Source: Christensenellaceae bacterium (lineage in GTDB: Bacteria > Bacillota > Clostridia > Christensenellales > UBA1242). From it: 64,000 bases of DNA. The position numbers and the translations under genes are program-made. Of this stretch, positions 805-43,746 are shown piece by piece (position 1 is the first letter of the stretch; every line of letters starts with the position of its first letter). The DNA is taken from the NCBI GenBank assembly GCA_031260975.1, contig JAISKJ010000003.1, forward strand, positions 355,758 to 419,757, read 5' to 3'. Below the pieces are notes generated by a model, which was not told where the DNA came from, made no database searches, and saw only the letters and a list, made by a program, of their open reading frames with translations.

Positions 805-2028
805 ATGAAAGCGCGGTTATTTAAAAAACTTGGCATAGCTTTGGGTGCTGTTGCACTCGTTTTTTGTCTGCTTTATTTTGCCGTTTTACCGGCTTCGAGA
901 GTGTTTGCGATGCCCGATAATATGATTATATATTCAAGCGATATAGGATATATCAATCAAAACAGGGTTTTTGGGCAGTTTGTGAACGTTGAGCTTAAAA
1001 AATCCAGCGTGCCGGTGGTAAAGGCTCCTGATGTGGGCGAAGTTGAGTTTAAGCTGTTTAATCTTATTCCCATAAAAACGCATAAGGTTGTTATAGGAGA
1101 AGATGAGGTTTTGGCGGGCGGAATGCCTGTGGGGTTGGTTATTTCGGCCGAAGGTGCGCTGATTGTGGGCAGCAGTGTGATTGAAACTGACGGTAATACT
1201 TTTGATATTACCAAGTCCGGCCTTAAGGTTGGAGATATAATCACGCATATTGAAGATGAAAAAGTGGAGAATACCGGCAGTATTTCTAAGTTTATCAACA
1301 AAAAGGAGAACGGGGGGCGCGAGCTTAAAATAACCGCTATGCGCAAAAATAAGGAATATGAATTTAGAGTAAAACCCGCTTATGATATAAAAAGCGACAG
1401 TTTTAAGCTGGGGGTTTGGGTGAGAGATGATGCTTCGGGGATAGGTACATTGACTTTTATTGATGATAAAAACCGTTTTGGTGCACTTGGCCATCCGATT
1501 TGCGATGGGGACACAGGAGTTATGATGGCTGTCAAAAGCGGGAATTTGTATGGATGCAATATTCTGGGCCTCAACAAGGGAGTAGCCGGTGACCCCGGCG
1601 AAATCAGGGGGTTGTTTTTGCAGGGCAAGAACAGTCAGGGACATATAGATAAAAACAGTGAATTTGGTGTTTTTGGTGAAATTTCACAGAATTCTTTACT
1701 TTTGGACCAAACGCTTAAACTGAAAGTGGGAGGGCGGCTGACGGTAAGCCCAGGAAAGGCCCAGATAAGAAGTGCTGTGGATGGTAACCTGAAGCTCTAT
1801 GACATAGAAATTATCAAAACAAATTATCAGAATTATCAGAATGACCGAAGTATGGTCATTAGAATAATTGACCCTGAGCTTTTAGAAAAAACCGGAGGGA
1901 TTATTCAAGGAATGAGCGGCAGTCCTATAATTCAGAACGGCAAGCTGGTGGGGGCAGTTACACATGTGTTTGTAAACGACCCAACAAAGGGGTTTGGTGT
2001 TTATATGGATTGGATGCTAGGGCAATAG
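805..2028 (+). CDS. spoIVB: SpoIVB signalling serine peptidase (family S55)
   Basis: SpoIVB is secreted from the forespore into the intermembrane space, where its cleavage of SpoIVFA releases the SpoIVFB protease that matures pro-sigma-K. The 407-residue protein begins with a basic N-terminus and one membrane segment (about residues 8-30). A PDZ domain follows (about 100-190, with GLKVGDIITHIEDEKVE), then the S55 peptidase domain. The conserved LGHPICDGDTG segment with the catalytic His and the GMSGSPIIQNGKLVGAVTH segment with the catalytic Ser are both present, and the end (TKGFGVYMDWML) is typical. The gene lies between recN and spo0A as in many spore formers. Its target's product, sigK, is also in this window at 43045. 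No Shine-Dalgarno site precedes the ATG. Confidence 0.93.
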   Translation: MKARLFKKLGIALGAVALVFCLLYFAVLPASRVFAMPDNMIIYSSDIGYINQNRVFGQFVNVELKKSSVPVVKAPDVGEVEFKLFNLIPIKTHKVVIGEDEVLAGGMPVGLVISAEGALIVGSSVIETDGNTFDITKSGLKVGDIITHIEDEKVENTGSISKFINKKENGGRELKITAMRKNKEYEFRVKPAYDIKSDSFKLGVWVRDDASGIGTLTFIDDKNRFGALGHPICDGDTGVMMAVKSGNLYGCNILGLNKGVAGDPGEIRGLFLQGKNSQGHIDKNSEFGVFGEISQNSLLLDQTLKLKVGGRLTVSPGKAQIRSAVDGNLKLYDIEIIKTNYQNYQNDRSMVIRIIDPELLEKTGGIIQGMSGSPIIQNGKLVGAVTHVFVNDPTKGFGVYMDWMLGQ

Positions 2029-2049
2029 ATTTGTAGTGTTTTATACAAA

Positions 2050-2077
2050 ATTGTAATATTATCGAGGTATTATTACA
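2050..2077 (+). terminator. Hairpin after spoIVB, possible terminator
   Basis: An inverted repeat TTGTAATA...TATTACAA with a ~12-base loop follows spoIVB by about 20 bases. The stem is AT-rich and lacks a proper U-tract, so termination is uncertain. It may instead be a dyad in the spo0A upstream region. Confidence 0.3.
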
Positions 2078-2236
2078 AAAGTGTCAAAAAATGATAGACT
2101 AAAATTTTTAAATATGCTATATTAAAAAAGTTAATAGTTTGATAAAGATTTTTTGGGCTGATCAGCGCTAATGTATATATGGCATTATTTTTTTGTCTGT
2201 TTTTTGAAAGTTGCTGAAATTCTTGAGTTAAAAAAT

Positions 2237-2281
2237 CATCCTGAACGGATGTAAAACAGCACCATCCATAGCGGGTGGTGC
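2237..2281 (+). promoter_or_regulatory. Competing hairpins in the spo0A leader
   Basis: CATCC (2237-2241) can pair with GGATG (2247-2251). GCACCATCC (2259-2267) can pair with GGGTGGTGC (2273-2281), forming a strong stem that ends one base before the AAAGGAG ribosome site of spo0A. GGATG can alternatively pair with the CATCC inside the second stem (2263-2267), so the two hairpins can exclude each other. That is the layout of a post-transcriptional switch. No ligand or known class is recognised. Confidence 0.4.
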
Positions 2282-2295
2282 AAAAGGAGTGGGCG

Positions 2296-3003
2296 ATGAC
2301 AAAAGGTAGGGCACCGGCGTTTTTATATTCCGGTGATAACGCGTGCTTGTGGCATAAATTGCAAAAAGAGTGTGAAAAAAACGAAATAAGTATATTTAAA
2401 GTAGCTGATTTAAGCGATTTTTTTATAAAACGCAAATCTTTAGGGCTGGTAATTTTATTTATAGACAAGTCTACAGTGAGCCCAAGTCCGGAGCTTATGG
2501 AGTTTATTCAAAAATGCAACGAGGGCTGGCAAAGCTCGATAGTAGTGTTTTTGGGGGATGCTGAAATAGAGCTTACAAAAAAATATTATAATATAATGAG
2601 TATTCCGATTGGAGCGATTGATGATATTTTTATGAGCAGCATGCTTAGCAAGCTTGAATCTGAGATGATGCGGCTGACAAATATGTGTTCTTGCAAGGTT
2701 TCTGCGTCAAGAATAGGCAAAGTACTTATGGATTTTGGATTTTCGCCTAAATACTTGGGTTCATCATATTTGGTAGAGGCAATAGAATATATAATTTTGA
2801 ACGGTGGCATTGTAGGCAACCTTCAAACAAAATCATATTCGTATGTGGCGGCAAAATTTTTTACTACAACCATGAGCATTGAGCGCGATATCAGAATGGC
2901 AATAGCAAATGCTTATAAAAATGACTGCGACAAGTTTGGAGGGCGTAAGCCGTCTAATAAAGAGTTTATTGCGTTTGTTGTAAATAAGTTGAAATATGAA
3001 TGA
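2296..3003 (+). CDS. spo0A: Spo0A-type sporulation response regulator with degenerate receiver
   Basis: Spo0A is the master regulator for entry into sporulation. The C-terminal ~110 residues match its DNA-binding domain: LMDFGFSPKYLGSSYLVEAI, the recognition-helix region YVAAKFFTTTMSIERDIRMAI, and the terminal NKEFIAFVVNKLKYE. The N-terminal ~120 residues have the size of a receiver domain but are divergent. An Asp that could be the phosphoacceptor is kept (about residue 57, in ILFIDKS). The paired acidic residues near the N-terminus are reduced to GDN, and the conserved Lys before Pro near residue 105 is absent (SIPIGAID). The ATG at 2296 was chosen because AAAGGAG at 2283-2289 is well spaced; an earlier GTG at 2275 has no such site. 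The position after spoIVB is typical for spo0A. Confidence 0.88.
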   Translation: MTKGRAPAFLYSGDNACLWHKLQKECEKNEISIFKVADLSDFFIKRKSLGLVILFIDKSTVSPSPELMEFIQKCNEGWQSSIVVFLGDAEIELTKKYYNIMSIPIGAIDDIFMSSMLSKLESEMMRLTNMCSCKVSASRIGKVLMDFGFSPKYLGSSYLVEAIEYIILNGGIVGNLQTKSYSYVAAKFFTTTMSIERDIRMAIANAYKNDCDKFGGRKPSNKEFIAFVVNKLKYE

Positions 3004-23001: not shown

Positions 23002-23763
23002 ATGCATTTTCATGTTTTAAAATCAAATAACCTCAAACTTATTGCTGTGATGATTGTGGTCATAGCTCTTCTTAGCGTAAACTTTGGCGGCAAGACGCTG
23101 GCTTCGGCCTATTTTGGGCAAGAACGGAAAATTCCGGTTTATTCGGTGCAGACGGACGAAAAAAAGATAGCCATAAGCTTTGACGCAGCATGGGGTGCCG
23201 ACAAAACCGAGAAGATTATGGATATACTTGACCGCCACAATGTTACGGCAACCTTCTTTTTGGTGGGCTTTTGGGTAGATAAGTATCCCGAAATGGTTGA
23301 GCTTATTGACGCAAGAGGCTTTGAGATTGGCACACATAGCAACACTCATCCGGATTTGGTAAAGCTTGACTCCAACCAAATTTTTCTTGAACTTAAAACT
23401 TCGATGGAGAAAATAACTGCTCGCACCAACAAGCCTGTAAAGCTTTTTAGGGCACCGTTTGGAAGTTATAGCAATCAAGTTTTGACCGAAGCCGAAAAGT
23501 TGGGGCTTATTACAATTCAGTGGGATGTAGATTCTCTCGATTGGCAGGGGATTGATGGAAACAGAATTACTTCAAATATAATTACCAAAGTAAAAAACGG
23601 CTCAATAATTCTGTGTCACAACAATTCTGACCACATACTTGAAGCTCTTGACGGTGTGATAGGAGCTTTGAAAGGGCGCGGGTATCAGTTTGTAAGCATA
23701 GGTGAACTGATTTATACACAAAATTATAGCATCAATTCTCAGGGAGTACAAATACAAAATTAA
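23002..23763 (+). CDS. pdaB: Sporulation polysaccharide deacetylase, PdaB-like
   Basis: A 253-residue exported NodB-type deacetylase. One N-terminal membrane/signal segment (about residues 12-30) is followed by the catalytic domain. Motif 1 is ISFDAAWGADKT, the PdaB version in which the second Asp of the usual TFDDGP is replaced. Motif 2 is THSNTHPDL with the metal-binding His pair, motif 3 is LFRAPFGSYS, and later come WDVDSLDW and ILCHNN. PdaB is needed to keep spore integrity in Bacillus. The start is supported by GCGAGGA ten bases upstream. The gene is followed 21 bases later by an SSB-like gene, perhaps on the same transcript. Confidence 0.88.
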   Translation: MHFHVLKSNNLKLIAVMIVVIALLSVNFGGKTLASAYFGQERKIPVYSVQTDEKKIAISFDAAWGADKTEKIMDILDRHNVTATFFLVGFWVDKYPEMVELIDARGFEIGTHSNTHPDLVKLDSNQIFLELKTSMEKITARTNKPVKLFRAPFGSYSNQVLTEAEKLGLITIQWDVDSLDWQGIDGNRITSNIITKVKNGSIILCHNNSDHILEALDGVIGALKGRGYQFVSIGELIYTQNYSINSQGVQIQN

Positions 23764-26748: not shown

Positions 26749-27255
26749 ATGAATTATAGAGTATGGTGCAGAACAATGTTGACAGTGTATAAGTTTCTTG
26801 GAGTAATCACGGCCTCACTTGACAAATGTATAAACCGTATGGCCTGTAGTGCTGCTGCAGAATCGGGAAATCAAGCCGAAAAAATAATTGGTTATACCGA
26901 AAATAAGATTGATTTAATAAACTTGAAAGTAATAATAGAACAAATTTTTCTTAAAATACCCAAAGAGCATTCCGAACTTCTGATGCTGCGCTATGTAGAC
27001 AATATGCAGAATAAGGATATTGCCGAGCTTAAGAATTGGGGTATGCGTACGTATTTTAGAAAGCTGAGCCGGGCTTTGACTGCGTTTGAAAACGAAGTTG
27101 AAACGGTAGCCTGTGAGCATAAAGATATTTTTGACAAGCTACTTGGGCAAAAGTGGATTGAAATGGCCTTTGACGAGCATCTGAAGAAAGTTGACAGCAT
27201 GGTGTGTGGAGACAGTAGCTCTCTTGAAAAACTTGTAAGGTGCCCTATATTTTAA
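26749..27255 (+). CDS. Sigma-70 region 4-like regulatory protein
   Basis: A 168-residue protein whose middle (about residues 64-125: LKVIIEQIFLKIPKEHSELL, MLRYVDNMQNKDIAELKNWG, MRTYFRKLSRALTAFE) matches the helix-turn-helix region 4 of sigma factors. No region 2 is visible, so it cannot be a normal sigma factor. Phage late-gene activators of Firmicutes (ArpU/RinA-like) have a similar build, and this gene sits 0.9 kb before a phage head cluster, so a role in switching that cluster on is plausible. GAGGAGGG precedes the ATG and a strong promoter lies upstream. Its stop abuts that of the reverse gene at 27256. Confidence 0.65.
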   Translation: MNYRVWCRTMLTVYKFLGVITASLDKCINRMACSAAAESGNQAEKIIGYTENKIDLINLKVIIEQIFLKIPKEHSELLMLRYVDNMQNKDIAELKNWGMRTYFRKLSRALTAFENEVETVACEHKDIFDKLLGQKWIEMAFDEHLKKVDSMVCGDSSSLEKLVRCPIF

Positions 27256-28080
27256 TTATAGTTCATGGTCATCATATAAATATTGCGGTTTTATTGTTTT
27301 GACCTCTTTGAATTTTTGTGTGTTGCGTGTTTTGTTTTTTGGAGTGATTTTCATATATAACAGATAAAATATTGCAAAAGAAGGCAGCAAAACCGCAACT
27401 ATTACAACAAATTTTACGTTGCTTGTTTTGAGATATTCAATATATGAAAGCACCGGAGTTATAAATGGATTCGGCGCATTTTCAAATATTTCCGTGTTTG
27501 GCAGAATTTCGCTGAGCATATCACTTAGCCCGCCATATACATAGCCTGAGGAGTTTCCGAATTTGCAGAAGTACCACACATTTCCTCGCCCAATAATCGC
27601 TTCTTCACCGCTTATTCTGCCTATGTATTGCAGAATATTTTGATTTTGGGGCAGAGCGGCCACGGCATTTGAAGCGTAGAAAGGCGCGTCTTTGAGCATT
27701 GCTCCGTCACTGCTAAAAACTCTGAATGTGGCAGAAACATATGGGTGTAGCGGGATACCGCTTATTGGCTGTACCTCTAGTTTTTTGACGTATCCGATTT
27801 GTTCCATATATTGTGCACGATAAAAATAGTCGTTTGCATCGCTGAGCAGTTTTACAAAATAGGTGTTAGGTATTTCAAAATACATATTTATATAACTTTC
27901 GTTTAGTGTGGGTGTTTTATATAAATAAACTCCTGCAAATTTTATTCTTGCAAATTGTTCGCCGTCACCTGTTGCAAAAACAGTTTTGTTTTGCGGAGCC
28001 AACAAAAGTGCATGAGAATAAATAAGCACTATAATTAGTGTCACCGGCACAAAAAACAATAATGAAAAAAGTTTTTTCAT
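27256..28080 (-). CDS. Exported SH3-like protein with C-terminal membrane anchor
   Basis: A 274-residue protein with a signal peptide (LFSLLFFVPVTLIIVLIYSH), an extracellular part and a C-terminal membrane helix (VKFVVIVAVLLPSFAIFYLLY minus its first residue), then a basic cytoplasmic tail. The outside part has two SH3-like stretches (ARIKFAGVYLYKTP and VFSSDGAMLKDAPFYAS ... GYVYGG). The build repeats that of the 24579 gene in short form. The ATG at 28080 follows GAGGGAAACT; the open frame extends 16 codons upstream into the terminase promoter region. It is inserted, reversed, between the region-4 gene and the terminase gene. Function unknown. Confidence 0.7.
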   Translation of the reverse strand: MKKLFSLLFFVPVTLIIVLIYSHALLLAPQNKTVFATGDGEQFARIKFAGVYLYKTPTLNESYINMYFEIPNTYFVKLLSDANDYFYRAQYMEQIGYVKKLEVQPISGIPLHPYVSATFRVFSSDGAMLKDAPFYASNAVAALPQNQNILQYIGRISGEEAIIGRGNVWYFCKFGNSSGYVYGGLSDMLSEILPNTEIFENAPNPFITPVLSYIEYLKTSNVKFVVIVAVLLPSFAIFYLLYMKITPKNKTRNTQKFKEVKTIKPQYLYDDHEL

Positions 28081-28156
28081 AGTTTCCCTCATCTTCATTC
28101 TAAAACAAAATCTGAACATAAAAAACACAAAAATTGTAAAAAATTGAGGAGTTTTG

Positions 28157-29575
28157 ATGAATGAAATTATTTACAGACTTAGGCAGATTTATAATGAAAC
28201 CCGGCGCAGATTTGAAAACAATAAAATTTTTAGATATAACACGGGTGAAATTGTTCACAAAAAACAGCTGGAGTTTCATAAATCCCCTGCGCGCAACCGT
28301 TGGGTGTTTGGCGGCAACAGAAGCGGAAAGACCGAATGCGGCGCAGTTGAAGCAATTTTTTTGGCGCGGGGTATTCATCCGTATAGGAAAAATAAGCCCT
28401 CAGTCAGCGGTTGGGTGGTGTCGCTCTCAACGCAGGTTCAGAGGGATGTTGCGCAAAAGAAAATTCTTGAATATCTCAATCCCGATTGGATAGAAGATAT
28501 TGCTATGTTAAGCGGAAAAAAGGATAACCCTGAAGGAGGTGTAATAGATTATATAACCATAAAAAATATTTTTGGGAGTGTCAGCCGCATAGGGTTTAAG
28601 AGCTGTGATCAGGGCAGGGAAAAGTTTCAGGGGATGAGCCTTGACTTTGTGTGGTTTGATGAAGAGCCGCCTCAGGATGTTTATGTTGAATGCCGCATGC
28701 GTGTTATGGATAAATGTGGCGATATTTTTGCCACCATGACGCCGCTTAAGGGGCTGACATTTGTATATAACGAAATTTATATGAACACTCATGACCCCGA
28801 AATTTGGTGCATGTTTATGGAGTGGAATGATAATCCATACCTCGATAAAAACGAAATAATGCTGATGGAAAATGCACTCGGCGCTGATGAACTTGACACA
28901 CGAAGAAGCGGCAAATTTAGCACCGCTCTTGGTCTCGTGTATAATGACTTTTCGCCCCTTGTGCACGTTGTGGAGCCTTTTGCGGTTCCACACGAGTGGT
29001 ATGATAATATTTCTATCGACCCGGGGCTTAAAAATCCTCTGTCTTGTCACTTTTATGCAGTGGATTTTGATGATAATATTTATGTGATATATGAGCATTA
29101 TGAGGCAGGCCGTGATGTAGCCTTTCATGCCGAAAAGATAAAACAAATTGCCGACAAACTGAATTGGCCGCGTCTTAGTAACGGCAGTCTTTCTGCGCTT
29201 ATTGACAGTGCAGCAAATCAGCGTACTCTTGCTTCAACCAAAAGTGTGGTGGAGTTATTTTTAGAATACGGCATAACCGTCAATCCGAATGTCAACAAGG
29301 ATTTGTTTAGCGGCATCAATCGTGTAAAGAGTTATCTTAAAACCGAAAATGGACCTAGACTTTTTATATTTAATAATTGTGTAAATCTAATAAGGGAATT
29401 TAAGGGCTATTTTTGGGGGTTGGGCGACAGTCCTGTTAAAAAGGATGACCATGCGCTTGATGAGCTTAGATATTATATAATGTCGCGACCTGAAAACAGA
29501 AAACAAAATATGAAAACCATGGTGCAAAAACATAAGGAGCAGTTGTATAGGAAAATAAAACGACAAAAATTGTGA
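28157..29575 (+). CDS. terL: Phage terminase large subunit
   Basis: TerL is the motor that cuts and packages DNA into a capsid. The 472-residue protein has an intact ATPase: Walker A GGNRSGKTE (about residues 52-60), Walker B VWFDEEP (about 165-171) and the coupling motif ATMTPLKG. The RNase H-like nuclease is also intact, with Asp in SIDPGLKNP (about 288), LIDSAANQ (about 350) and KDDHALDELRYY (about 430-441). All catalytic residues are kept, so decay is not evident. The ATG at 28157 follows GAGGAG at 28146-28151. It heads a run of same-strand genes with short gaps up to the capsid. Confidence 0.95.
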   Translation: MNEIIYRLRQIYNETRRRFENNKIFRYNTGEIVHKKQLEFHKSPARNRWVFGGNRSGKTECGAVEAIFLARGIHPYRKNKPSVSGWVVSLSTQVQRDVAQKKILEYLNPDWIEDIAMLSGKKDNPEGGVIDYITIKNIFGSVSRIGFKSCDQGREKFQGMSLDFVWFDEEPPQDVYVECRMRVMDKCGDIFATMTPLKGLTFVYNEIYMNTHDPEIWCMFMEWNDNPYLDKNEIMLMENALGADELDTRRSGKFSTALGLVYNDFSPLVHVVEPFAVPHEWYDNISIDPGLKNPLSCHFYAVDFDDNIYVIYEHYEAGRDVAFHAEKIKQIADKLNWPRLSNGSLSALIDSAANQRTLASTKSVVELFLEYGITVNPNVNKDLFSGINRVKSYLKTENGPRLFIFNNCVNLIREFKGYFWGLGDSPVKKDDHALDELRYYIMSRPENRKQNMKTMVQKHKEQLYRKIKRQKL

Positions 29576-29581
29576 GGCCAT

Positions 29582-29959
29582 ATGAAAGAAGAAGAATATG
29601 AGCAACTTAACATGGGTTTTGAAAAATTAGAGTCGCAAACAGAAGTTGTGATGACGGCAAATAGGCTTGATTTAAAGGAGGCATTGCTTAAGCGTGCGGT
29701 TGGGTATGTAAGTGAAGAGCAGGTGGATGAGTATGCCTTAGATGCTCTTGGCGGCAAACTTAAGCTCATTAAGCGTAAAGTTATTCATAAGGAAGTGCCT
29801 CCTGATGTGATGGCGGCAAAGGTTTTGATGGATGTGTATAACATAGATGCAATCAGGCGGATGAGTGACGAGGAGCTTGAACAGGAAAAAAATAGACTGC
29901 TTATACTTTTAAAACAGGAAGAGGAGATTAAAGGAGGGGAAAATGTTGATAGAGAATAA
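29582..29959 (+). CDS. Small-terminase-like protein
   Basis: A 125-residue protein. The core LKEALLKRAVGYVSEEQVDEY ... KLIKRKVIHKEVPPDVMAAK (in two or more parts) resembles the C-terminal region of many Firmicute phage small terminases, where a similar ALLK.A.GY then KKxVPPDxxAxxF pattern occurs. The usual N-terminal DNA-binding helix-turn-helix is not apparent; the first 30 residues are acidic. It may be a trimmed TerS or a packaging accessory. It sits seven bases after terL and overlaps the next gene, so expression is coupled. Confidence 0.55.
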   Translation: MKEEEYEQLNMGFEKLESQTEVVMTANRLDLKEALLKRAVGYVSEEQVDEYALDALGGKLKLIKRKVIHKEVPPDVMAAKVLMDVYNIDAIRRMSDEELEQEKNRLLILLKQEEEIKGGENVDRE

Positions 29960-30179
29960 TGTTAAGATAGTACGCTGCATGGGCAAGGAGTGCAATAAAA
30001 TCGCTGCATATAAAATAACACTGAATAAGAAAAACATTTGTGTGTGCAAAAGCTGCTTAAATAATTTATATGACCGCATCGGAAAAGTGCTTATACCCAA
30101 AAGCCCATGCAACTTTTTAAATGATGAAAAAATGAAAAAAGCTGATTTTGACCATCCGCATACCTCCAAAAACGTTTAG
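29943..30179 (+). CDS. Small Cys-rich zinc-binding phage protein
   Basis: A 78-residue protein with two CxxxC/CxxC pairs (CMGKEC and CVCKSC, about residues 10-15 and 33-38), the pattern of a small zinc ribbon. The order C-x4-C, then C-x2-C, then NNLYDRIGK is seen in many short phage or plasmid proteins near terminase genes. Whether it binds DNA or another protein is unknown. TAAAGGAGGGGAAA gives a strong ribosome site inside the end of the preceding gene. It overlaps that gene by 17 bases. Confidence 0.7.
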   Translation: MLIENNVKIVRCMGKECNKIAAYKITLNKKNICVCKSCLNNLYDRIGKVLIPKSPCNFLNDEKMKKADFDHPHTSKNV

Positions 30180-30213
30180 TTGTAATTATATAACAAAAAG
30201 GAGAAGATAAAAA

Positions 30214-32103
30214 ATGCAAGAGAGAATTAAGAAACATGAAGAAGAAGTCATCAAAAAGTTAGTAGAGGATATCTATACTGACTTCAAAAAAAGAAGGACT
30301 GAGCGCAAGCCTTTTGAGGCTCAGTGGCAGCTTAACAACAATTTTGTTATGGGTAATCAATACTGCTCAATTGTGGCAGGCCATGAAGTGGAGGATTATT
30401 CAAAACAATACTTTTGGCAGGAGCGTGAAGTTTTTAATCACATAGCACCTTTGATTGAAGCAAGACTTTCAAAGCTTGCTCGCATTAAACCTGCGCTCAC
30501 AGTGCTTCCTGCAAGTGCTGAGGAAGGGGACATTAAAGTGGCCAAGCTTAGCCGTGATATAATAAATGCCACAAGTGAACGTATAAATATCTACGGCAAA
30601 ATTCTTGATGCCACCAAATGGAGCGAAATTTGCGGCACAAGTTTTTATAAAATTATTTGGAACGCCGGTGCCGGAAAGAGTATAGCAACAGATGAAGCAA
30701 GAATTCCCATTCATGAAGGCGACGTTGAGGTTGCGGTAATTCCGCCATATGAAATCTTTCCTGAATCGTCATGCAGCGGCAGCATTGAGGAGTGCAGCAG
30801 TATAATTCACGCCAAGGCCTATAATGTTCAGGCAATAAAAAACATTTGGGGCGTTGACATTGAAGGAGGTTCGGTTGATGTCTTTGCTCTTGACAAGGTT
30901 CAGGTTTTGGGAGGCCTTGGTTATAGGGCCGCTGCAAGCGGTGTCATAAACAGTGTAAAGAATGACCATGCTATAGTTCTTGAAAAATATGAAGCGCCTA
31001 CAGTAAAGTATCCAAACGGCAGGCTGATTATCGTATGTGAGGACAAGCTTCTTTATATGGGAGAGCTGCCTTATATAAATGCTACTGAACACAAAAGAGG
31101 ATATCCTTTTATTCGTCAGGTTTCGGTGGGTCTTGCCGGTTGTTTTTGGGGAAGTAGCGTAATTGAGCGTACGATACCGGTTCAGCGGGCATATAACGCC
31201 GTAAAAAATCGCAAGCATGAATTTTTAAACAGGCTTTCTATGGGCGTGCTTATGGTTGAGGATGGCAGTGTAGATATAGAAAATCTTGAAGAAGAGGGGC
31301 TTAGTCCCGGTAAGGTATTGATATACAGGCAAGGCAGCACGCCGCCAAGCATTATGAGCGACAGAAGTCTTCCTATAGATTTTTCGGCCGAGGAAGAGCG
31401 GTTGATAGATGAGTTTACTGAAATCAGTGGTATAAGCTATTATACCCGTAACACCAACAGTTTGTTTAGCGGAAACATTAGCGGTGTAACGCTGCAATTA
31501 CTTTTGGAGCAGGACGACGCAAGACTTAATGCCACCGTTGACAGCATAAAGGATGCTGTCAAAGATATTGCCAAGCAAATTCTCAGACTTTATAAGCAAT
31601 ATGCCAACACGCCGAGGCTTCTGCGACTCAATAATGACCGCGGAGAGGTTGAGGTTTTTTATTGGAGCCGAAGCGATATTAATAGTGAGGATGTTGTAAT
31701 AGACAACAGCAGCGTAGCTTTCCAGACCCTCGCTCAGCGTCAGAGCAGAATTCTTGAACTGCTGCAGACGGGCTTGCTTAAGGATGATGAAGGAAAAATG
31801 TCTCCGTTTATGCGTGCAAAGGCTCTGGATATTTTGGGCCTTGGTGTTTGGGAAAACGGAGTTGATTTGAGCGCACTTCATATGAGACATGCCGAAAAAG
31901 AAAATCTTCTGTTTTTGACAAATCCCAGAGTGGTTGACATAAGCGAGATTGACGACCATCAAATTCATATAGATAAGCATATTGCCTTTTCACTCAGCCG
32001 TGAATTTGAACAAAAGCTTGCCCAAAACCCCAACCTTAAGGATAAGCTCATAGCACATATAAATTTACATAAAGAGTATTTAAAAGAGGGGACAAAAAAG
32101 TAA
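30214..32103 (+). CDS. Phage portal protein (short-tailed phage type)
   Basis: The portal forms the twelve-fold ring through which DNA enters and leaves the capsid. At 629 residues this matches the long portals of P22-like podoviruses. The helical N-terminus with FKKRRTERKPFEAQW, WSEICGTSFYKIIWN, IPPYEIFPESS, RGYPFIRQVSVG and the region ISGVTLQLLLEQDD (about residues 423-436) match this family's pattern. The C-terminal helical domain continues to the end without truncation. AAAAGGAGAAG precedes the ATG. Its position between terminase and scaffold/capsid genes is the standard order. No mutation suggestive of decay was seen. Confidence 0.88.
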   Translation: MQERIKKHEEEVIKKLVEDIYTDFKKRRTERKPFEAQWQLNNNFVMGNQYCSIVAGHEVEDYSKQYFWQEREVFNHIAPLIEARLSKLARIKPALTVLPASAEEGDIKVAKLSRDIINATSERINIYGKILDATKWSEICGTSFYKIIWNAGAGKSIATDEARIPIHEGDVEVAVIPPYEIFPESSCSGSIEECSSIIHAKAYNVQAIKNIWGVDIEGGSVDVFALDKVQVLGGLGYRAAASGVINSVKNDHAIVLEKYEAPTVKYPNGRLIIVCEDKLLYMGELPYINATEHKRGYPFIRQVSVGLAGCFWGSSVIERTIPVQRAYNAVKNRKHEFLNRLSMGVLMVEDGSVDIENLEEEGLSPGKVLIYRQGSTPPSIMSDRSLPIDFSAEEERLIDEFTEISGISYYTRNTNSLFSGNISGVTLQLLLEQDDARLNATVDSIKDAVKDIAKQILRLYKQYANTPRLLRLNNDRGEVEVFYWSRSDINSEDVVIDNSSVAFQTLAQRQSRILELLQTGLLKDDEGKMSPFMRAKALDILGLGVWENGVDLSALHMRHAEKENLLFLTNPRVVDISEIDDHQIHIDKHIAFSLSREFEQKLAQNPNLKDKLIAHINLHKEYLKEGTKK

Positions 32104-32119
32104 TAGATGCGTCCGGTAT

Positions 32120-32200
32120 ATATATGGAAGCAGGTAATCACTCGTTAGGGCTTTGAAACGCATTGTGCAGTTGCACAGATATTGTGCACAAAACGTGAAT
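32120..32200. promoter_or_regulatory. Dyad-rich gap between portal and scaffold genes
   Basis: The 160-base gap holds TGTGCA-GT-TGCACA (32164-32177) and the palindrome TTGTGCACAA (32182-32191), two copies of one half-site (TGTGCA) in tandem dyads. The stretch CGTTAGGGCTTTG...GTGCAG before them weakly resembles the core of palindromic repeat copies B and C. A binding site that controls scaffold/capsid expression is a reasonable guess. Confidence 0.35.
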
Positions 32201-32263
32201 TTGAATGTTTGAATATAATAAAAATCAACAAATAGCATATCAAAAAATTAGAAGGAGTAAAAA

Positions 32264-32869
32264 ATGGAAGAAGAACAAATTATGGAACAACCTGAGGCAC
32301 GCAGTCATAGTGCAGCGGCACAAAGTGAAGATGTTGGACAGGATGCCGGCGGCTCCATAGGAAAATTTAAGGATAGTGCAGCACTTTTTGATGCTTACAA
32401 CAATCTGCAGAGTGAGTTTACCAAAAAGTGTCAGACACTAGCCGACCTCAAAAAGAAGAGTGAAGAAAGCTTGCAGACCGATACATTAAATCAAAAGTTG
32501 CAAGACTTTTTACAGACTCATCCTGAGGCGGATGATTTCAAGGATATGATTTTGCAGCAATTTTCAGATGACAAATCAGAAGAAAATTCTAATCCGTTTG
32601 AAATTGCGTGGAGTAAAATCGCTATGCAAAACTTTAAACTTCCTCAAAATTTAGTCAAAGATACAGGTTTTTTAGAGCAATTTATCTTTAACAACAACGA
32701 AATCAAGGATAAAATTCTGAATGATTATTTTAGTCAGTTGAATTTTGCCTCTTCGCCTACGCTCATTAGCAGTCACGCGGGCTCTGCTCCGAGTGTTACG
32801 CCAAGGGCGTCTGCCAAAAATATTGTTGAAGCGGGCAAAATGGCAAAGGCAATTTTTGACGGTAAATAA
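32264..32869 (+). CDS. Phage scaffolding-type protein
   Basis: A 201-residue acidic, mostly helical protein with low-complexity ends. KFKDSAALFDAYNNLQSEFTKK (two parts, about residues 35-56) and the coiled-coil stretch after it match the scaffold proteins found just before capsid genes in Firmicute podovirus- and siphovirus-type clusters. The basic C-terminal tail (KNIVEAGKMAKAIFDGK) fits a coat-binding helix. AAGAAGGAG precedes the ATG, and the capsid gene follows 23 bases later. No protease domain is seen, so it is probably not self-cleaved. Confidence 0.75.
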   Translation: MEEEQIMEQPEARSHSAAAQSEDVGQDAGGSIGKFKDSAALFDAYNNLQSEFTKKCQTLADLKKKSEESLQTDTLNQKLQDFLQTHPEADDFKDMILQQFSDDKSEENSNPFEIAWSKIAMQNFKLPQNLVKDTGFLEQFIFNNNEIKDKILNDYFSQLNFASSPTLISSHAGSAPSVTPRASAKNIVEAGKMAKAIFDGK

Positions 32870-32892
32870 ACATAAGACAAAAGGAGAAAAAT

Positions 32893-34074
32893 ATGGTAAC
32901 GATAACTAGTGCACAAAATGCATTAAAAACAGTTTATTTGGATGTTGTGTCAAATCAGCTGAATGTTGGGGCAAACCCTCTTCTTGCAAAGATTAAACAT
33001 ACTTCCAGTGACATTTTGGGCAAAGAAATCAGAAAAATGACCACAGTCGGCCTTAACGGCGGAATTGGCGCCGGAAGTGAAGATGGGGCACTGCCTGCCT
33101 CTGCCGGCAATAACTATGTTCAATTTGTAACAACATTAAAGAATCTTTACGGCACCATTGAAATCAGCGACAAGGCGCTCAGGGCTTCGGCAAATGATGC
33201 CAGTGCTTTTGTAAACCTGCTTAATGATGAAATGGAAGGCCTGATTAAGGCAAGCACTTTCAACATTTCGCGTATGCTTTATGGTGACGGAACGGGCAAG
33301 CTTGCTGCGCTGACCGCATATAACAACACTACTAAAGCTTTGACTTTAGATAGTATTAAGAATGTTATGGAGGGTATGGTAGTTGACATTTATAACAATG
33401 ACACTTTGGTTCAGGGCGGACTTAGAATTGCTAGCGTTCTGAGAGGCACTAAGCAGATTGTTTTGTCTCCGACTCCGACTACGGCTCCGGTTGCAGGCTA
33501 CCATTTGTACGTTCAGAAGTCAAAAGGACAGGAATTAACCGGTCTTGGCACTTTGTTTAGAGAAATCGGGTCTATTTATGGCATAGACAAAGTTACGGCA
33601 TATTGGATGACCCCATATGTTGCAAACTCTGTGGGTGAAATAAGTGACAATAAGATTCAGACTGCGATTGACTATCTTGAAGAAATCAGTGGCGGCCAGG
33701 TTGACTTTATAACCTGTTCATCAACAGTAAAAAGAGCATACCAGCAGTATTTATCTTTCTATAAGAGAAATTTTGATATTGTAGAGCTTGCAGGCGGTGT
33801 TAAAGCGCTTTCATTTGCGGGTATCCCTGTTGTGTCTGACCGTTTTGCACCGGATGACAGCATGTATTTGCTTGACACAAAAGAATTTGCTATGCACCAG
33901 CTGGGCGATTGGAATTGGCTTGAAGATGACAGCGGAAAGATTATCCGACAGGTTCCGGGTTTTGCCACATACAGTGCAACTTTGGTGAAGTATGCAGACC
34001 TTATCTGCAACAGACCTAATGCACAGGCAAAGCTTGCCGGAATTTCGGCTAGTGTCACCAACCCGTTTGCATAA
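32893..34074 (+). CDS. Phage major capsid protein, HK97 fold
   Basis: A 393-residue coat protein. The N-terminal LKTVYLDVVSNQLNVGANPL, the GTIEISDKALRAS segment, the A-domain-like KIQTAIDYLEEISGGQVDFI, and the end FDIVELAGGVKALSFAGIPV ... DLICNRPNAQAKLAGI (in parts) match the family often found beside P22-like portals in Firmicutes. The residues flow from E-loop to P-domain to A-domain in the usual order with no gap. AAAGGAG precedes the ATG. It directly follows the scaffold gene, the typical arrangement for co-assembly. Confidence 0.88.
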   Translation: MVTITSAQNALKTVYLDVVSNQLNVGANPLLAKIKHTSSDILGKEIRKMTTVGLNGGIGAGSEDGALPASAGNNYVQFVTTLKNLYGTIEISDKALRASANDASAFVNLLNDEMEGLIKASTFNISRMLYGDGTGKLAALTAYNNTTKALTLDSIKNVMEGMVVDIYNNDTLVQGGLRIASVLRGTKQIVLSPTPTTAPVAGYHLYVQKSKGQELTGLGTLFREIGSIYGIDKVTAYWMTPYVANSVGEISDNKIQTAIDYLEEISGGQVDFITCSSTVKRAYQQYLSFYKRNFDIVELAGGVKALSFAGIPVVSDRFAPDDSMYLLDTKEFAMHQLGDWNWLEDDSGKIIRQVPGFATYSATLVKYADLICNRPNAQAKLAGISASVTNPFA

Positions 34075-34100
34075 ATTTAAGCAAAATTTAGGAGAAAGGT

Positions 34101-34451
34101 ATGTATATAAGGGTCATAAATGATATTTTTGATATATCACACAGGATAAAAGATATAGACGACGGTTATTTTGTGCTCTATAACACCGCCGCAAGAATAT
34201 TTGAAGTGCACAACAGCAAGCAAAAAGATACTTTTTGTATAAGCTGCCAGTACCTTGATGCGAGGGTGCTAAATAAGCTGCACAAAACCAAAACCGTGAA
34301 TCTTAACAAGATTTTGGGTGAAATTGAAGAAAATAATCAAAAAATCGCTAAAAAATCATATAGAAACAGCATGGATGCAGCAAAAGAGAAATTTGATGAA
34401 ATTATGCAGTATTTGGACAGCGGCAAAAACTATGACCCAAAATATACATAA
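34101..34451 (+). CDS. Conserved phage head-region protein
   Basis: A 116-residue protein with a beta-rich first half (MYIRVINDIFDISHRI, YFVLYNTAARIFEVHNSK) and a helical, charged second half. Similar short proteins follow the coat gene in many Firmicute phage clusters, but I know of no assigned function. It is placed where head-completion or decoration proteins are encoded. TTAGGAGAAAGGT precedes the ATG and it lies 26 bases after the capsid gene. Confidence 0.65.
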   Translation: MYIRVINDIFDISHRIKDIDDGYFVLYNTAARIFEVHNSKQKDTFCISCQYLDARVLNKLHKTKTVNLNKILGEIEENNQKIAKKSYRNSMDAAKEKFDEIMQYLDSGKNYDPKYT

Positions 34452-34469
34452 TCAAATGGAGGTGATGAT

Positions 34470-35027
34470 ATGCTGGTTTCAAATGTTTTAAAAACAGCAT
34501 CACTTATGCTGGGGCTGGAAGAAGAATTTGCGCCGATTTTTGTCTCAAGCGCGGTAAGTGCTGAAACTCAGAAGAAATTTAATAAACTGCTTGACAGTTT
34601 CAATCTGTGTCTTAGCGAAATTAGTACTGATTATATTCCGCTTCTTACTTCTCAAACTTTGACGCCGGTTGGCGGAAAGCTGTATTCAAACAGCACTGAT
34701 ATGAAGCGGATATATGAAATTCGCACAAAAAGCGGCAAAAAATTAAAATACAAGCTGTTTGAAGGGTTTGTTTCTATAGATTTTGCAGGTCCTGTTGAAG
34801 TCACGAGCTTTGTTGCCCCGCAGATATTAACGCTTAATAGTACATTCAGCAGCTTTGGTGGCAAAGTCAGCGAAAAATGTCTTGCTATGGGAACATCGGC
34901 AGAGTATTGCTTTTTAGCTGCGCTGTATAATGACGCTGAAATTTGGGACAATCGCTTTAGGCAGGCGCTGAACCGCGCGTGCTCAAAAAAGGATAGCTTA
35001 ATTTTGCCTGAAAGAAGGTGGCTGTAA
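34470..35027 (+). CDS. Head-completion / tail-adaptor protein (gp4-like)
   Basis: A 185-residue protein placed like the first head-closure protein below the portal. The N-terminal helices (SNVLKTASLMLGLEEEFAP, KKFNKLLDSFNLCLSEIST) and the later FLAALYNDAEIWDNRFRQA (with YNDAEIWD) resemble the P22 gp4 / adaptor pattern of helical bundle plus beta part. The match is by layout and short motifs only. GGAGGTGATGAT before the ATG is a very strong ribosome site. Its stop overlaps the next start (TAATG), so the two are translationally coupled. Confidence 0.6.
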   Translation: MLVSNVLKTASLMLGLEEEFAPIFVSSAVSAETQKKFNKLLDSFNLCLSEISTDYIPLLTSQTLTPVGGKLYSNSTDMKRIYEIRTKSGKKLKYKLFEGFVSIDFAGPVEVTSFVAPQILTLNSTFSSFGGKVSEKCLAMGTSAEYCFLAALYNDAEIWDNRFRQALNRACSKKDSLILPERRWL

Positions 35028-36460
35028 TGTTTTATGAGAAGAAATTTTTGGGTAAGTCGATGAAATATCAAAAAATATGCTTTAATTTTGCCGGGAACTC
35101 AAATAAACTGCCTTTAAAAACACAGGGATATAATTTTATGATGGGCGATGGATTGTGTTCGGGGCTGGGACTGCATGAAATTGCCATTCCTGATGCTATC
35201 CCAATTACTTTTCCGGCTAACACAACAGTCATAAAAGCATGGAGTTATAAGTTTTTTAGTTATCTGGCTCAAGAAGAGCTGCACCTTCTTATATGTTATT
35301 GCAGTAACAATAAGCTTTATCGCATCAGCCTCAGCTCGTTAGACTTGTATGCTTTGGATTTAACAAACATTCAGCTGAGCAGTACTCCTGAAATGCTGGC
35401 TTATAGGATAGGCGGATTTGACAGAGCGATATTTTATAGTAAAGACGATATATTGTTCTGGACTTCAGCCGCTCCGCCGTATATTCCGTCAGTTGATTAT
35501 AAAATAAAGTCGGCCGCAGTTTTTGGGAATAAAATTCTTGCAGCCCTATGGGAAGATGAATATAAGCTGCACTATTGCGACATTATGAGTGAGCCCGACT
35601 TTATTATAACCACTGCCCCTGATGAGGATGCAGGAGAGATTGGTATAAGAAAGGAGTTTGGACCTATAACGCGGTTGCTAAACTTTTTTGACTGCCTTGT
35701 GGTTATTACTGAATTTGGTGTGCTGAGGCTGGACTTAAACGAAAACGGTAAGTTTGTTTTAACGGAATGCTTTTTAAGTGATGCCAAAATTTATGCCGAT
35801 ACGGCAGCTGTCTGTGGCAGCAAAATTTTTATGCTGACCACTCTTGGGATATATATATTTGACGGACGCAGGGCAAAAAAGAGTGATGTGTTGGAGGTTC
35901 CTTCTTATGAAAGCCTTGGTCAGCCGGTTGCAGCTTTCTTTGATGGAAAATATTATCTAGCTCTCAAAGTGCATTTTGACAGCAATATTGTAGGTGATGA
36001 GGCGATATTGGGCTTTGTAAATAACGCACTTATCGTAATTAATGCTGACACCATGCACAAAGACACTATGCGCGGTTTTGATATATGTTCGTTTGCCACC
36101 GTTGTAGAAGATAGGTTTGCTAAGTTATTTGTCGGCACCAGAGGAAGCAGAAGTGATATCATGGGCGAATTTTGCGCCGATGGCACAAACTTTGGCATGC
36201 CTCTTAAAAAAGCATTTAAACTTTTGAGGTTTGGTGCTGATAGTGCCGAGAAAAAAACTATAAGAAGTATATGCATAAGAGGAACGCTTGACTGTATTCT
36301 TACTGTTAAGGATGAAGCGGACAAGCGAAATTTTTGTGTGGTAGGCGGCAGGATAAATAGGTTTATGGTGAACATGGTATCCGAGACCTTTGATATTGAG
36401 TTGACGGCTCAGACAAGCGGCAAAATTGATATATTAGAGATTGAATTTGCAAATATTTAG
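35027..36460 (+). CDS. Phage tail-hub / plug-like protein (gp10-like), beta-propeller rich
   Basis: A 477-residue beta-rich protein. Repeated blocks of about 40-50 residues end in short strands (LHLLICYCSNNKLYRIS, DRAIFYSKDDILFWTS, NKILAALWEDEYKLHYC, DCLVVITEFGVLRLD, SKIFMLTTLGIYIFDG, KYYLALKVHF), the pattern of a beta-propeller. In P22-like phages the product after gp4 (gp10) caps the portal and holds the DNA in. Both position and size agree, but sequence identity is not evident. No needle (gp26) or tailspike gene follows. The ATG at 35027 follows AGAAGG; an in-frame GTG at 35018 is a weaker choice. Confidence 0.55.
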   Translation: MFYEKKFLGKSMKYQKICFNFAGNSNKLPLKTQGYNFMMGDGLCSGLGLHEIAIPDAIPITFPANTTVIKAWSYKFFSYLAQEELHLLICYCSNNKLYRISLSSLDLYALDLTNIQLSSTPEMLAYRIGGFDRAIFYSKDDILFWTSAAPPYIPSVDYKIKSAAVFGNKILAALWEDEYKLHYCDIMSEPDFIITTAPDEDAGEIGIRKEFGPITRLLNFFDCLVVITEFGVLRLDLNENGKFVLTECFLSDAKIYADTAAVCGSKIFMLTTLGIYIFDGRRAKKSDVLEVPSYESLGQPVAAFFDGKYYLALKVHFDSNIVGDEAILGFVNNALIVINADTMHKDTMRGFDICSFATVVEDRFAKLFVGTRGSRSDIMGEFCADGTNFGMPLKKAFKLLRFGADSAEKKTIRSICIRGTLDCILTVKDEADKRNFCVVGGRINRFMVNMVSETFDIELTAQTSGKIDILEIEFANI

Positions 36461-36522
36461 CATTTTTAACTATCAAAACACCATCAGAAACGGAAATATA
36501 ATGCTCATTTTTTAAAATTTAC

Positions 36523-36556
36523 AAGAAGCGGGCGTTTGGCGCCCTGTTTCTTTTTC
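36523..36556 (+). terminator. Terminator after the plug-like gene
   Basis: AGAAGCGGGCG pairs with CGCCCTGTTTCT across a TTTGG loop, with a GC-rich GGGCG/CGCCC core, then TTTTT. It ends the capsid operon ahead of the holin-like gene. Confidence 0.7.
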
Positions 36557-36617
36557 CTCTTATCCTATGATTTTTGAAATTTAAGGAAGTGCAAAAGCAC
36601 TTAAAGGAGGGTAGAAA

Positions 36618-36917
36618 ATGAAAAGCACTTTAAAGTATGGTGTAACTATAACTATTGCCGCAATGGCTGTGAGTATAGTCCAGTTTGTTTGTGGTTTTTT
36701 GGGATTTGACATTGATGTCAATATTCTGATAGACATAGCATCAGTTATTATGGCGGTTTTAGTGGTGCTGGGCGTGGTGAAACGCGCCGAGACCATTGAC
36801 ACCGATGAACTTAAGGGTCAGATTAAAGATGACCTGAAAGACAAGCTGGATGGGTTCACTAAAGATGAGACGGGGGAAAAGGCTTCTGAGAAGAATCAAG
36901 ACCATGACGAACAATAA
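36618..36917 (+). CDS. Holin-like small membrane protein
   Basis: A 99-residue protein with two membrane helices (GVTITIAAMAVSIVQFVCGF and IDIASVIMAVLVVLGVVKRA, about residues 9-28 and 39-58) and a highly charged, Lys/Asp/Glu-rich C-terminus. This is the usual build of Firmicute phage holins. A holin would open the membrane for an endolysin, but no endolysin gene is found nearby. AAAGGAGGG precedes the ATG. It has a terminator on each side, so it is expressed as a separate unit next to the capsid operon. Confidence 0.6.
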   Translation: MKSTLKYGVTITIAAMAVSIVQFVCGFLGFDIDVNILIDIASVIMAVLVVLGVVKRAETIDTDELKGQIKDDLKDKLDGFTKDETGEKASEKNQDHDEQ

Positions 36918-42913: not shown

Positions 42914-43044
42914 TGTGGTGATGTGTCAACATTTTAATGATAGAAGACGGAGTTTCTGATTTATTATCTCTGGACATGCAACAAGGAATGAATTTTGTCA
43001 TATACATTCTGTATGCTTTTGAAAGGGCATATTTGGGGGTGTAT

Positions 43045-43746
43045 ATGATAGTTGAAAGTTTTATGACGTTCATGAACAGAATTATGCTTTTTTCGGCGTT
43101 TGTCAATAATGTATCATGTTTTCCAAAGCCTTTGAATCCCGAAGCAGAAAAGGAGAACTTTGAAAAGTTTTGGGCGGGCGACAAAAAGGCAAAAGAAATT
43201 TTGATAAGCCATAACTTGAGACTTGTAGCGCATATAGTAAAAAAATATAATACAGCGGGAGAGGCCGATGATTTGATATCGGTGGGCTCCATAGGTCTTA
43301 TTAAGGCTATCAACAGTTTTCAATATGGAAAGAACACACAGTTCAGCACTTATGCTGCCAGATGTATTGAAAATGAAATCCTTATGCTCTTGAGGGTAAA
43401 CAAAAAACATCAATCAACTTTGGCGCTTAATGAAGTGCTCAGCCGCGACAAAGAGGGAAATGAGGTGTGTCTTATGGATATCGTTCCCGACATTGAGCAT
43501 GATGTTATTGAGGAGGTGGAAAATAACATTCTGACCGTTAAGCTCCTCGGCATCATAAAAGAAAGCTTAAGTGAACGGGAATATCAGATTATGGAGCTGC
43601 GCTTTGGTATTGGCGGCAAGCCTACATATACTCAACGCGAGGTTGCTGACCGGCTTGGTATATCAAGGTCATATATAAGCAGACTTGAAAAAAAGGCGCT
43701 TGCCACCATACGCGCTCAAATAAAGAAACAAGAGTTGTTTTTCTAA
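43045..43746 (+). CDS. sigK: Sporulation sigma factor SigK (pro-sigma-K)
   Basis: Sigma-K directs late mother-cell transcription in sporulation. The protein has the pro-sequence-like hydrophobic start (MNRIMLFSAFVNNVSC), FPKPLNPEAEK, region 2 (NLRLVAHIVKKY, DDLISVGSIGLIKAINSF) and region 4 (LSEREYQIMELRFGI, YTQREVADRLGISRSYISRLEKKAL, in parts). The length of about 233 residues fits. SpoIVB, which triggers pro-sequence removal, is encoded at 805. The ATG at 43045 was chosen because GGGGGTG precedes it; ATG 43063 is an alternative, and a longer frame from 42937 has no support. The gene is continuous, with no skin-like insertion. Confidence 0.92.
   Translation: MIVESFMTFMNRIMLFSAFVNNVSCFPKPLNPEAEKENFEKFWAGDKKAKEILISHNLRLVAHIVKKYNTAGEADDLISVGSIGLIKAINSFQYGKNTQFSTYAARCIENEILMLLRVNKKHQSTLALNEVLSRDKEGNEVCLMDIVPDIEHDVIEEVENNILTVKLLGIIKESLSEREYQIMELRFGIGGKPTYTQREVADRLGISRSYISRLEKKALATIRAQIKKQELFF

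Follow-up and report, generated by a model that had tools for sequence, protein, structure and literature searches.

Why should a Christensenellaceae chromosome carry a compact set of phage head genes with no infection genes beside them? The question is raised by the window, i.e. the whole stretch of 64,000 nucleotides analysed here (assembly GCA_031260975.1, contig JAISKJ010000003.1, positions 355,758 to 419,757), in which a cluster of ten same-strand genes, at 28154-36917, is embedded in the core chromosome. The cluster is probably an inherited, phage-derived capsid and DNA-packaging set resembling a gene transfer agent (GTA), whose short-tailed particles are predicted to package host chromosome fragments without specificity. 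Gene set, small terminase, heredity and selection together make a domesticated, podovirus-like system of this kind the likeliest reading; that its particles package DNA, are released and deliver their cargo is inferred from the genes.

The distribution of the cluster was evaluated with its large terminase (TerL) and coat protein. TerL was found in 181 of the 197 sampled genomes of the family, in 124 of the 132 good-quality genomes and in 41 of 42 genera, and the corresponding values for the coat were 182, 125 and 42. At least one of the two was present in 187 genomes. Both were absent in 10, and since RNase J, a core neighbour, was also absent in four of these (a weak 28% match in G174 being discounted), part of the absence reflects assembly gaps. 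A single match per genome was usual (TerL 170/181, coat 150/182); multiple matches comprised tandem duplicates, contig-split pieces and further copies, taken together without sorting. Tandem duplicated coats were seen in L069, L070, L087, L207 and L209, with both copies open in the first three and 39-53% identity to the window coat. In the host's order, the coat was detected in 173 of 297 genomes from 18 families, with one match in 166 of the 173, and in nine families besides the host's, parts of the cluster beyond the coat were seen (regions L073-L080, L273 and L274). In the class sample it was present in 26 of 391 genomes, 12 of them outside the order (6 families; 5 of the 12 in one genus). 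Phage-derived capsid and packaging genes are thereby fixed in the host's family, as is expected of a GTA, and partially present at the level of the order. The protein-database search gave at least 5979 coat relatives. Among named records at least 584 relatives were confirmed, and the best 80 of these were used; those with the cluster were mostly uncultured Clostridia, together with Christensenella sp. UBA1242, UBA5489, Candidatus Borkfalkia and Candidatus Onthoplasma, and on this basis the host's order is taken as GTDB Christensenellales.

The cluster is under purifying selection. The median ratio of nonsynonymous to synonymous substitution (dN/dS, NG86) was 0.092 for TerL (42 pairs), 0.10 for the portal (72), 0.112 for the coat (378), 0.12 for the tail hub (25) and 0.20 for the scaffold (85), values which are rough because many pairs have dS around 1.5. 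Pairs were retained if they passed a word-similarity filter with pS < 0.70 and dS > 0.1. The comparison genes gave 0.15 for SSB (7 pairs), 0.15 for a deacetylase (15) and 0.11 for RNase J (1). The open reading frames (ORFs) were mostly intact. The coat was complete in 122 of 123 loci, and in the remaining one the contig stops within the gene; the flag raised by another script in the L087 coat, at residue 390 of 419, falls at the usual coat end. TerL was intact in 70 of 83 loci (7 cut, 6 flagged, with the flagged stops at the alignment end or in the first ten residues) and the portal in 104 of 116 (7 cut, 5 flagged, two of these terminal). After removal of duplicates and near-identical pairs, Mantel tests on 21-29 loci showed that the distances of TerL, portal, coat and hub track those of SSB and the deacetylase (r 0.55-0.88, 0 of 2000 permutations), and tests on 9-10 loci showed the same for portal, coat and hub against RNase J (r 0.67-0.74). 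Synteny, Mantel correlations and dN/dS point to vertical inheritance with purifying selection, another property expected of a GTA, the pair of RNase J and TerL being not significant.

The small terminase (TerS) gave a further indication. Loss of the N-terminal DNA-binding domain has been proposed as a mark of GTA-type small terminases (Sherlock et al. 2019, PMC6854486). Over 88 ORFs, TerS measured 65-173 aa with a median of 99, and only three reached 140 aa or more (L079, L124, L151). The window TerS and all six relatives tested matched phrog_309 only from about position 190, while homologues with a helix-turn-helix (HTH) matched it earlier, from 131 in L216, 123 in L213 and 132 in L079. The N-terminal part of L216 and L079 gave weak matches to HTH protein families (E ~0.005), and the HTH of L213 was recognized by eye. 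The TerS family profile aligned to residues 79-144 of the HTH-bearing L079 protein (173 aa; 96% probability) and to residues 63-113 of that of L216 (90% probability). The gene order differed as well: in all 59 loci with both ORFs labelled, TerS stands downstream of TerL, whereas the small-terminase gene is upstream in L079, L213 and L216. Two other phage-like loci have an upstream gene that matches small terminases, clearly in L264 and weakly in L267. By these profile matches, the cluster TerS appears to retain just the post-HTH part, in a position downstream of TerL. A small terminase without its N-terminal DNA-binding domain, as described for GTAs in PMC6854486, points to a GTA-like version of the domesticated-capsid idea, which the first-pass annotation of this DNA had raised.

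The same annotation had listed ten phage-type genes on one strand, which was borne out by the ORFs and by Pfam and PHROG matches (Table 1); matches above the Pfam cut-off were Terminase_6N/6C, P22_portal and SU10_MCP. It had also reported good ribosome sites throughout and no visible decay. Read by eye in the upstream sequence, the sites are AGGAG-like for most of the ten genes and weaker for TerS and gene 9 (GTG 35018); none of the ten ORFs is broken. TerL likely starts at ATG 28157, one codon within a TTG-led ORF. The description as head-only had to be abandoned. The AlphaFold model of gene 9 (pLDDT 88) resembles podovirus tail hubs, the best PDB matches by Foldseek TM score being the Pa223 tail protein (0.73), VP1 (0.67), P22 gp10 (0.59) and SU10 (0.54). 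The modelled fold suggests a closed short-tailed head rather than a bare shell, and the cluster is predicted to encode the head plus tail hub of a short-tailed phage.

Table 1. Genes of the cluster and its two left-hand neighbours, in window coordinates (TM, transmembrane)
Position	Strand	Product	Basis
26749..27255	+	Candidate cluster regulator, a small protein containing sigma-70 region 4 (HTH)	Pfam Sigma70_r4_2, exactly at cut-off
27256..28128	-	Membrane protein divergent from TerL, candidate surface partner	Two SH3-like domains between TM helices, all as predicted
28157..29575	+	TerL, large terminase	Pfam Terminase_6N/6C; PHROG terminase large subunit, E 1e-26
29582..29959	+	Small terminase (TerS), apparently without N-terminal HTH part	phrog_309 positions 199-241 only, E 2e-4
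29943..30179	+	Zinc-finger-like packaging-module protein	CxxxxC...CxxC by eye; orthologues in relatives
30214..32103	+	P22-type portal	Pfam P22_portal, 66 bits; phrog_156, E 1e-31
32264..32869	+	Scaffold-like protein	Between portal and coat; syntenic orthologues
32893..34074	+	Major capsid protein (coat), SU10/HK97 type	phrog_14242, E 3e-50; Pfam SU10_MCP
34101..34451	+	Small post-coat gene, probable head-completion/connector protein	Position; syntenic orthologues
34470..35027	+	Probable head-tail adaptor, P22 gp4 position	Position; profile match in phage-like contig L213
35018..36460	+	Predicted podovirus tail hub/DNA plug, P22 gp10 type (gene 9)	AlphaFold and Foldseek
36618..36917	+	Holin-like membrane protein	phrog_3428 holin, E 7e-4

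Some of the smaller products were recognized by position and orthology. The zinc-finger-like protein had no match in the Pfam and PHROG scans, and the scaffold-like protein no informative family in them. The adaptor profile matched the gene preceding the hub in L213 (E 2e-10); in PDB sequence searches the coat profile gave nothing useful and the adaptor profile no match. The holin-like protein matched the C1 family profile of the relatives (E 1e-10). A second holin-family match in the same genome, on contig C2, was weak and on reading was judged unrelated.

The arrangement of the cluster is conserved. In 40 regions from 38 relatives the usual order was TerL, TerS, zinc protein, portal, scaffold, coat, the genes labelled 116 and 185, and hub; this holds for most regions, some having missing or unrecognised pieces, and the order was similar in named contigs. 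Many relatives also share the left neighbours (deacetylase, SSB, a large membrane protein, the sigma-region-4 gene and the divergent membrane gene) and the right ones (a 313-aa membrane protein, RNase J, a methyltransferase and U32). By the match listings, TerL and coat are 21-103 kb apart in nine genomes, seven of them from one genus (G082, G103, G123, G141, G154, G165 and G216) plus G059 and G016. TerL retains the adjoining divergent membrane gene in the four split cases read for it (L060, L085, L086 and G103), and the TerS-to-hub block was located elsewhere in four (L270-L272 and L277). Distribution of genes over several loci, a trait of GTAs, may be represented by these nine relatives; in the window's genome one locus is known. 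In L052, L054, L056, L064, L092 and L099-L102, a surface-type protein of 745-1126 aa with a C-terminal TM segment stands between TerL and TerS; proteins elsewhere in the window's genome match its profile.

The two left-hand genes of Table 1 look like new partners of the cluster, and the functional unit probably extends leftward to 26749. The divergent membrane protein (AlphaFold pLDDT 81) gave weak PDB matches (best E 7e-5, TM score 0.23), which include SH3-like repeats of endolysin and autolysin. With profiles built partly from the scored loci, and with the two genome sets overlapping, its gene was placed no more than 1.5 kb from TerL in 33 of 36 genome regions; the figures for named contigs and for viral-collection contigs were 34 of 36 and 11 of 15. 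The misses were L079, L081, L275, L155, L168, L200, L212, L213 and L224, among which L213, L224 and L275 look like phages. Upstream of TerL, the sigma-region-4 gene stands on the same strand at a distance of at most 2.8 kb in 28 of 35 genome regions and 26 of 31 named contigs, and likewise in 8 of the 10 viral-collection contigs whose sequence reaches far enough. When the 10 genomes lacking TerL and coat were compared with 14 chosen cluster-bearing ones, the divergent membrane gene was absent in 9 of the former and present in all of the latter; matches to the sigma-like gene were strong in 13 of these 14, at E 2e-21 or lower (G021 gave just E 2e-5), and among the 10 they were weak in seven and absent in three. 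Co-loss was set aside as proof, since the comparison is confounded by missing assembly segments (RNase J absent in four of the 10).

The host genome comprises 1,186,791 bases in 7 contigs and is 97% complete. The housekeeping genes reported earlier on both sides are indeed chromosomal: gyrB, gyrA, a PdaB-like deacetylase, SSB, RNase J, a U32/TrhP-like protein, a SigK-like factor, LepA and HemW. Of the window proteins, 30 were scanned against NCBIfam and 8 against Pfam (4 overlap), a selection of the window's ORFs; they belonged to chromosomal families or had no match (8 of the 30 in NCBIfam). No integrase, replication initiator or lysin was present among the scanned proteins, in agreement with the first-pass annotation. 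A cluster with no replication or integration genes of its own beside it, as far as these proteins go, is what a GTA would present. Sporulation-type genes (SpoIVB, Spo0A-like, PdaB-like and SigK-like) were noticed at 805-3000, 23002-23763 and 42937-43746 of the window, in a genome of 1.19 Mb.

Relatives differ from the window in the region after the hub. In 77 loci with enough post-hub sequence, a coiled-coil protein (C2) was found in 35, a small membrane protein (C0), which we take to be BhlA-like, in 43, a holin in 55 and another large ORF in 19. The window's genome has the holin only: profiles of the relatives' post-hub genes (C0, C2, C24, C38 and C42) gave nothing significant in the full 1,186,791-base genome, a search which divergent versions would escape. 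Two large adhesin-looking proteins (~340-840 and 665-670 aa) follow the hub in L067, L140, L146, L151 and L276. Those of 821-838 aa may end, by eye, in a C-type-lectin-like variable domain, and in L140 both large proteins were without a Pfam match.

From these parts a working cycle can be proposed. A regulator, perhaps the adjacent sigma-region-4 protein, would switch the cluster on in some cells. Coat and scaffold would assemble on the portal, and TerL with the HTH-less small terminase, which would not read a pac site, would package any DNA end met until the head is full. Adaptor and hub would then close the filled head, and the holin, together with a putative endolysin, would lyse the producer cell. 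The recipients would be kin with the capacity for DNA uptake and recombination. ComEC- and DprA-type domains are encoded in the window's genome; since most control genomes have them too, they lend weak support to DNA uptake.

Among published systems, FpGTA of Faecalibacterium prausnitzii (Borodovich et al. 2026, PMC12946183) comes closest by its description. This ten-ORF podovirus-like operon yields 40 nm particles with ~9 kb of host DNA, and its authors consider it the first podovirus-like GTA. As in the window, the text describes TerS, TerL, portal, scaffold, coat and short-tailed-phage-like proteins, a TerS without obvious DNA-binding domain, no replication genes and a clostridial gut host. 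In FpGTA, however, the small terminase is upstream of TerL, and a second operon (tail fibre, receptor-binding protein, holin and endolysin) occurs in some strains; the window cluster contains the holin itself, and no second operon was found with the relatives' extra-gene profiles. FpGTA was reported from twelve Faecalibacterium genomes and not from Gemmiger or Subdoligranulum (PMC12946183), whereas the window coat reaches 18 families of the host's order. In the class sample, the 16S probe detected a Faecalibacterium genome in 0 of 391.

RcGTA of Rhodobacter capsulatus has a long, siphovirus-like tail and the window cluster a podovirus-type hub. In both, phage genes are kept by the host and the small terminase lacks an N-terminal DNA-binding domain (for RcGTA, PMC6854486). 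With P22/SU10-like podoviruses the cluster shares portal, coat and hub families, but no spike, needle, lysin, repressor, integrase or replication gene was found with it. Annotated phage records listed by INPHARED tblastn are distant, with identities of at most ~30% for TerL and 28% for the coat.

Several observations weigh against the GTA-like reading. The coat was without a match in 124 of the 297 genomes of the order. The phrog_309 match of the window TerS is weak by itself (E 2e-4), and the TerS family profile did not align to the small terminase of L213 (6% probability). Portals are interrupted in two of 116 loci, by an internal stop in L051 and a split in L081, and a stop 29 residues into the L170 portal is ambiguous. 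RNase J and TerL distances were uncorrelated (Mantel n = 8, r 0.24, 368 of 2000 permutations), and the vertical signal comes from flanking genes alone, so moved-cluster loci were left out. No tail spike, needle or receptor-binding protein was identified in the window's genome; neither was an endolysin, for which no dedicated profile search was made. In view of these missing functions, delivery is the weakest step, and the particle might not deliver DNA.

This last point bears on the strongest alternative, a domesticated capsid kept for another use, such as a PBSX-like killing particle or DNA release, which would package host DNA and transfer none. We consider it rather unlikely. PBSX has a long tail, and only a short hub is encoded here; portal, TerL and the DNA-closing hub, all under purifying selection, argue for a retained DNA cargo. 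Besides the receptor-binding or spike gene not found in the window's genome, the large, variable or adhesin-like post-hub proteins of some relatives would fit such a use. Delivery by FpGTA is itself undemonstrated, and its authors raise the PBSX alternative (PMC12946183).

Still less probable is a lineage of genuine proviruses or satellites that are exchanged slowly and favour one chromosomal site. It would accommodate the phage-like contigs L213, L216, L219 and L224, whose head proteins are 24-55% identical, the phage-like appearance of some order-level copies (e.g. L079, where an HTH-bearing TerS precedes TerL and the divergent membrane gene is missing) and the up to four coat matches in a few family genomes. 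Against it stand the single match in most genomes, distances that track host genes, the lack of integrase and replication genes among the scanned neighbours and the splitting of the cluster into blocks in some genera. The inherited pattern and the absence of mobility genes among the scanned neighbours make another option of the first-pass annotation, the head part of a larger satellite, unlikely. An ordinary decaying prophage remnant, which would account for the tail tip, lysin, replication and integration genes not found, is highly improbable, as broken ORFs, relaxed selection and patchy family presence were not observed: dN/dS is ~0.1, ORFs are mostly intact and TerL or coat is in 187 of 197 family genomes. 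The two computational checks proposed at the outset, synteny across related genomes and dN/dS of TerL, portal and coat, were both run; order and neighbours were conserved in the regions read and the ratios were far from the value near 1 expected of decay, and with family-wide presence and mostly intact ORFs they favour the kept DNA-packaging particle then suggested.

If the GTA-like reading is true, a large group of gut bacteria would inherit capsid-borne DNA exchange as a trait, family-wide and partly order-wide, among uncultured small-genome clostridia. Few GTAs have been described beyond the Alphaproteobacteria. The authors of PMC12946183 count theirs, published in 2026 and confined to a single genus, as the first of podovirus-like type. 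Their paper, the one found in the literature search to mention both GTAs and Christensenellales, reports GTA-like packaging in Christensenellaceae faecal particles (3 of 25 events) and, in the sections consulted, names genes for Faecalibacterium only. The window cluster is a candidate for the genes behind that packaging and provides a signature for this gene-less signal, namely an HTH-less TerS downstream of TerL and a divergent SH3-like gene. The wider proposal is evenly poised: a single capsid domestication, older than the split of the ~18 families, may persist as a cellular DNA-sharing machine with its own paired surface protein and sigma-region-4 switch, its motor gene parted from the shell genes in some genera without loss of either, and may supply the genes for the faecal-particle packaging of host DNA.

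Outlying relatives were also observed. Four similar genomes of genus g123, in another order (L259-L262), have the coat, a small gene and an ORF in hub position (~600 aa in L259 and L261); no recognisable portal or TerL stands beside the coat and the hub and adaptor profiles gave no match, so this is possibly a second, split system. One coat relative, P0012, is 62% identical and labelled Spirochaetales in its source, perhaps owing to a binning error or to transfer. Many of the 58 IMG/VR hits (L171-L228) carry the host neighbours SSB, sigma-like gene and divergent membrane gene beside TerL; with such neighbours, they look like host chromosome stored as viral because of the cluster, and a GTA-like cluster, if real, would explain the presence of these host contigs in a viral collection.

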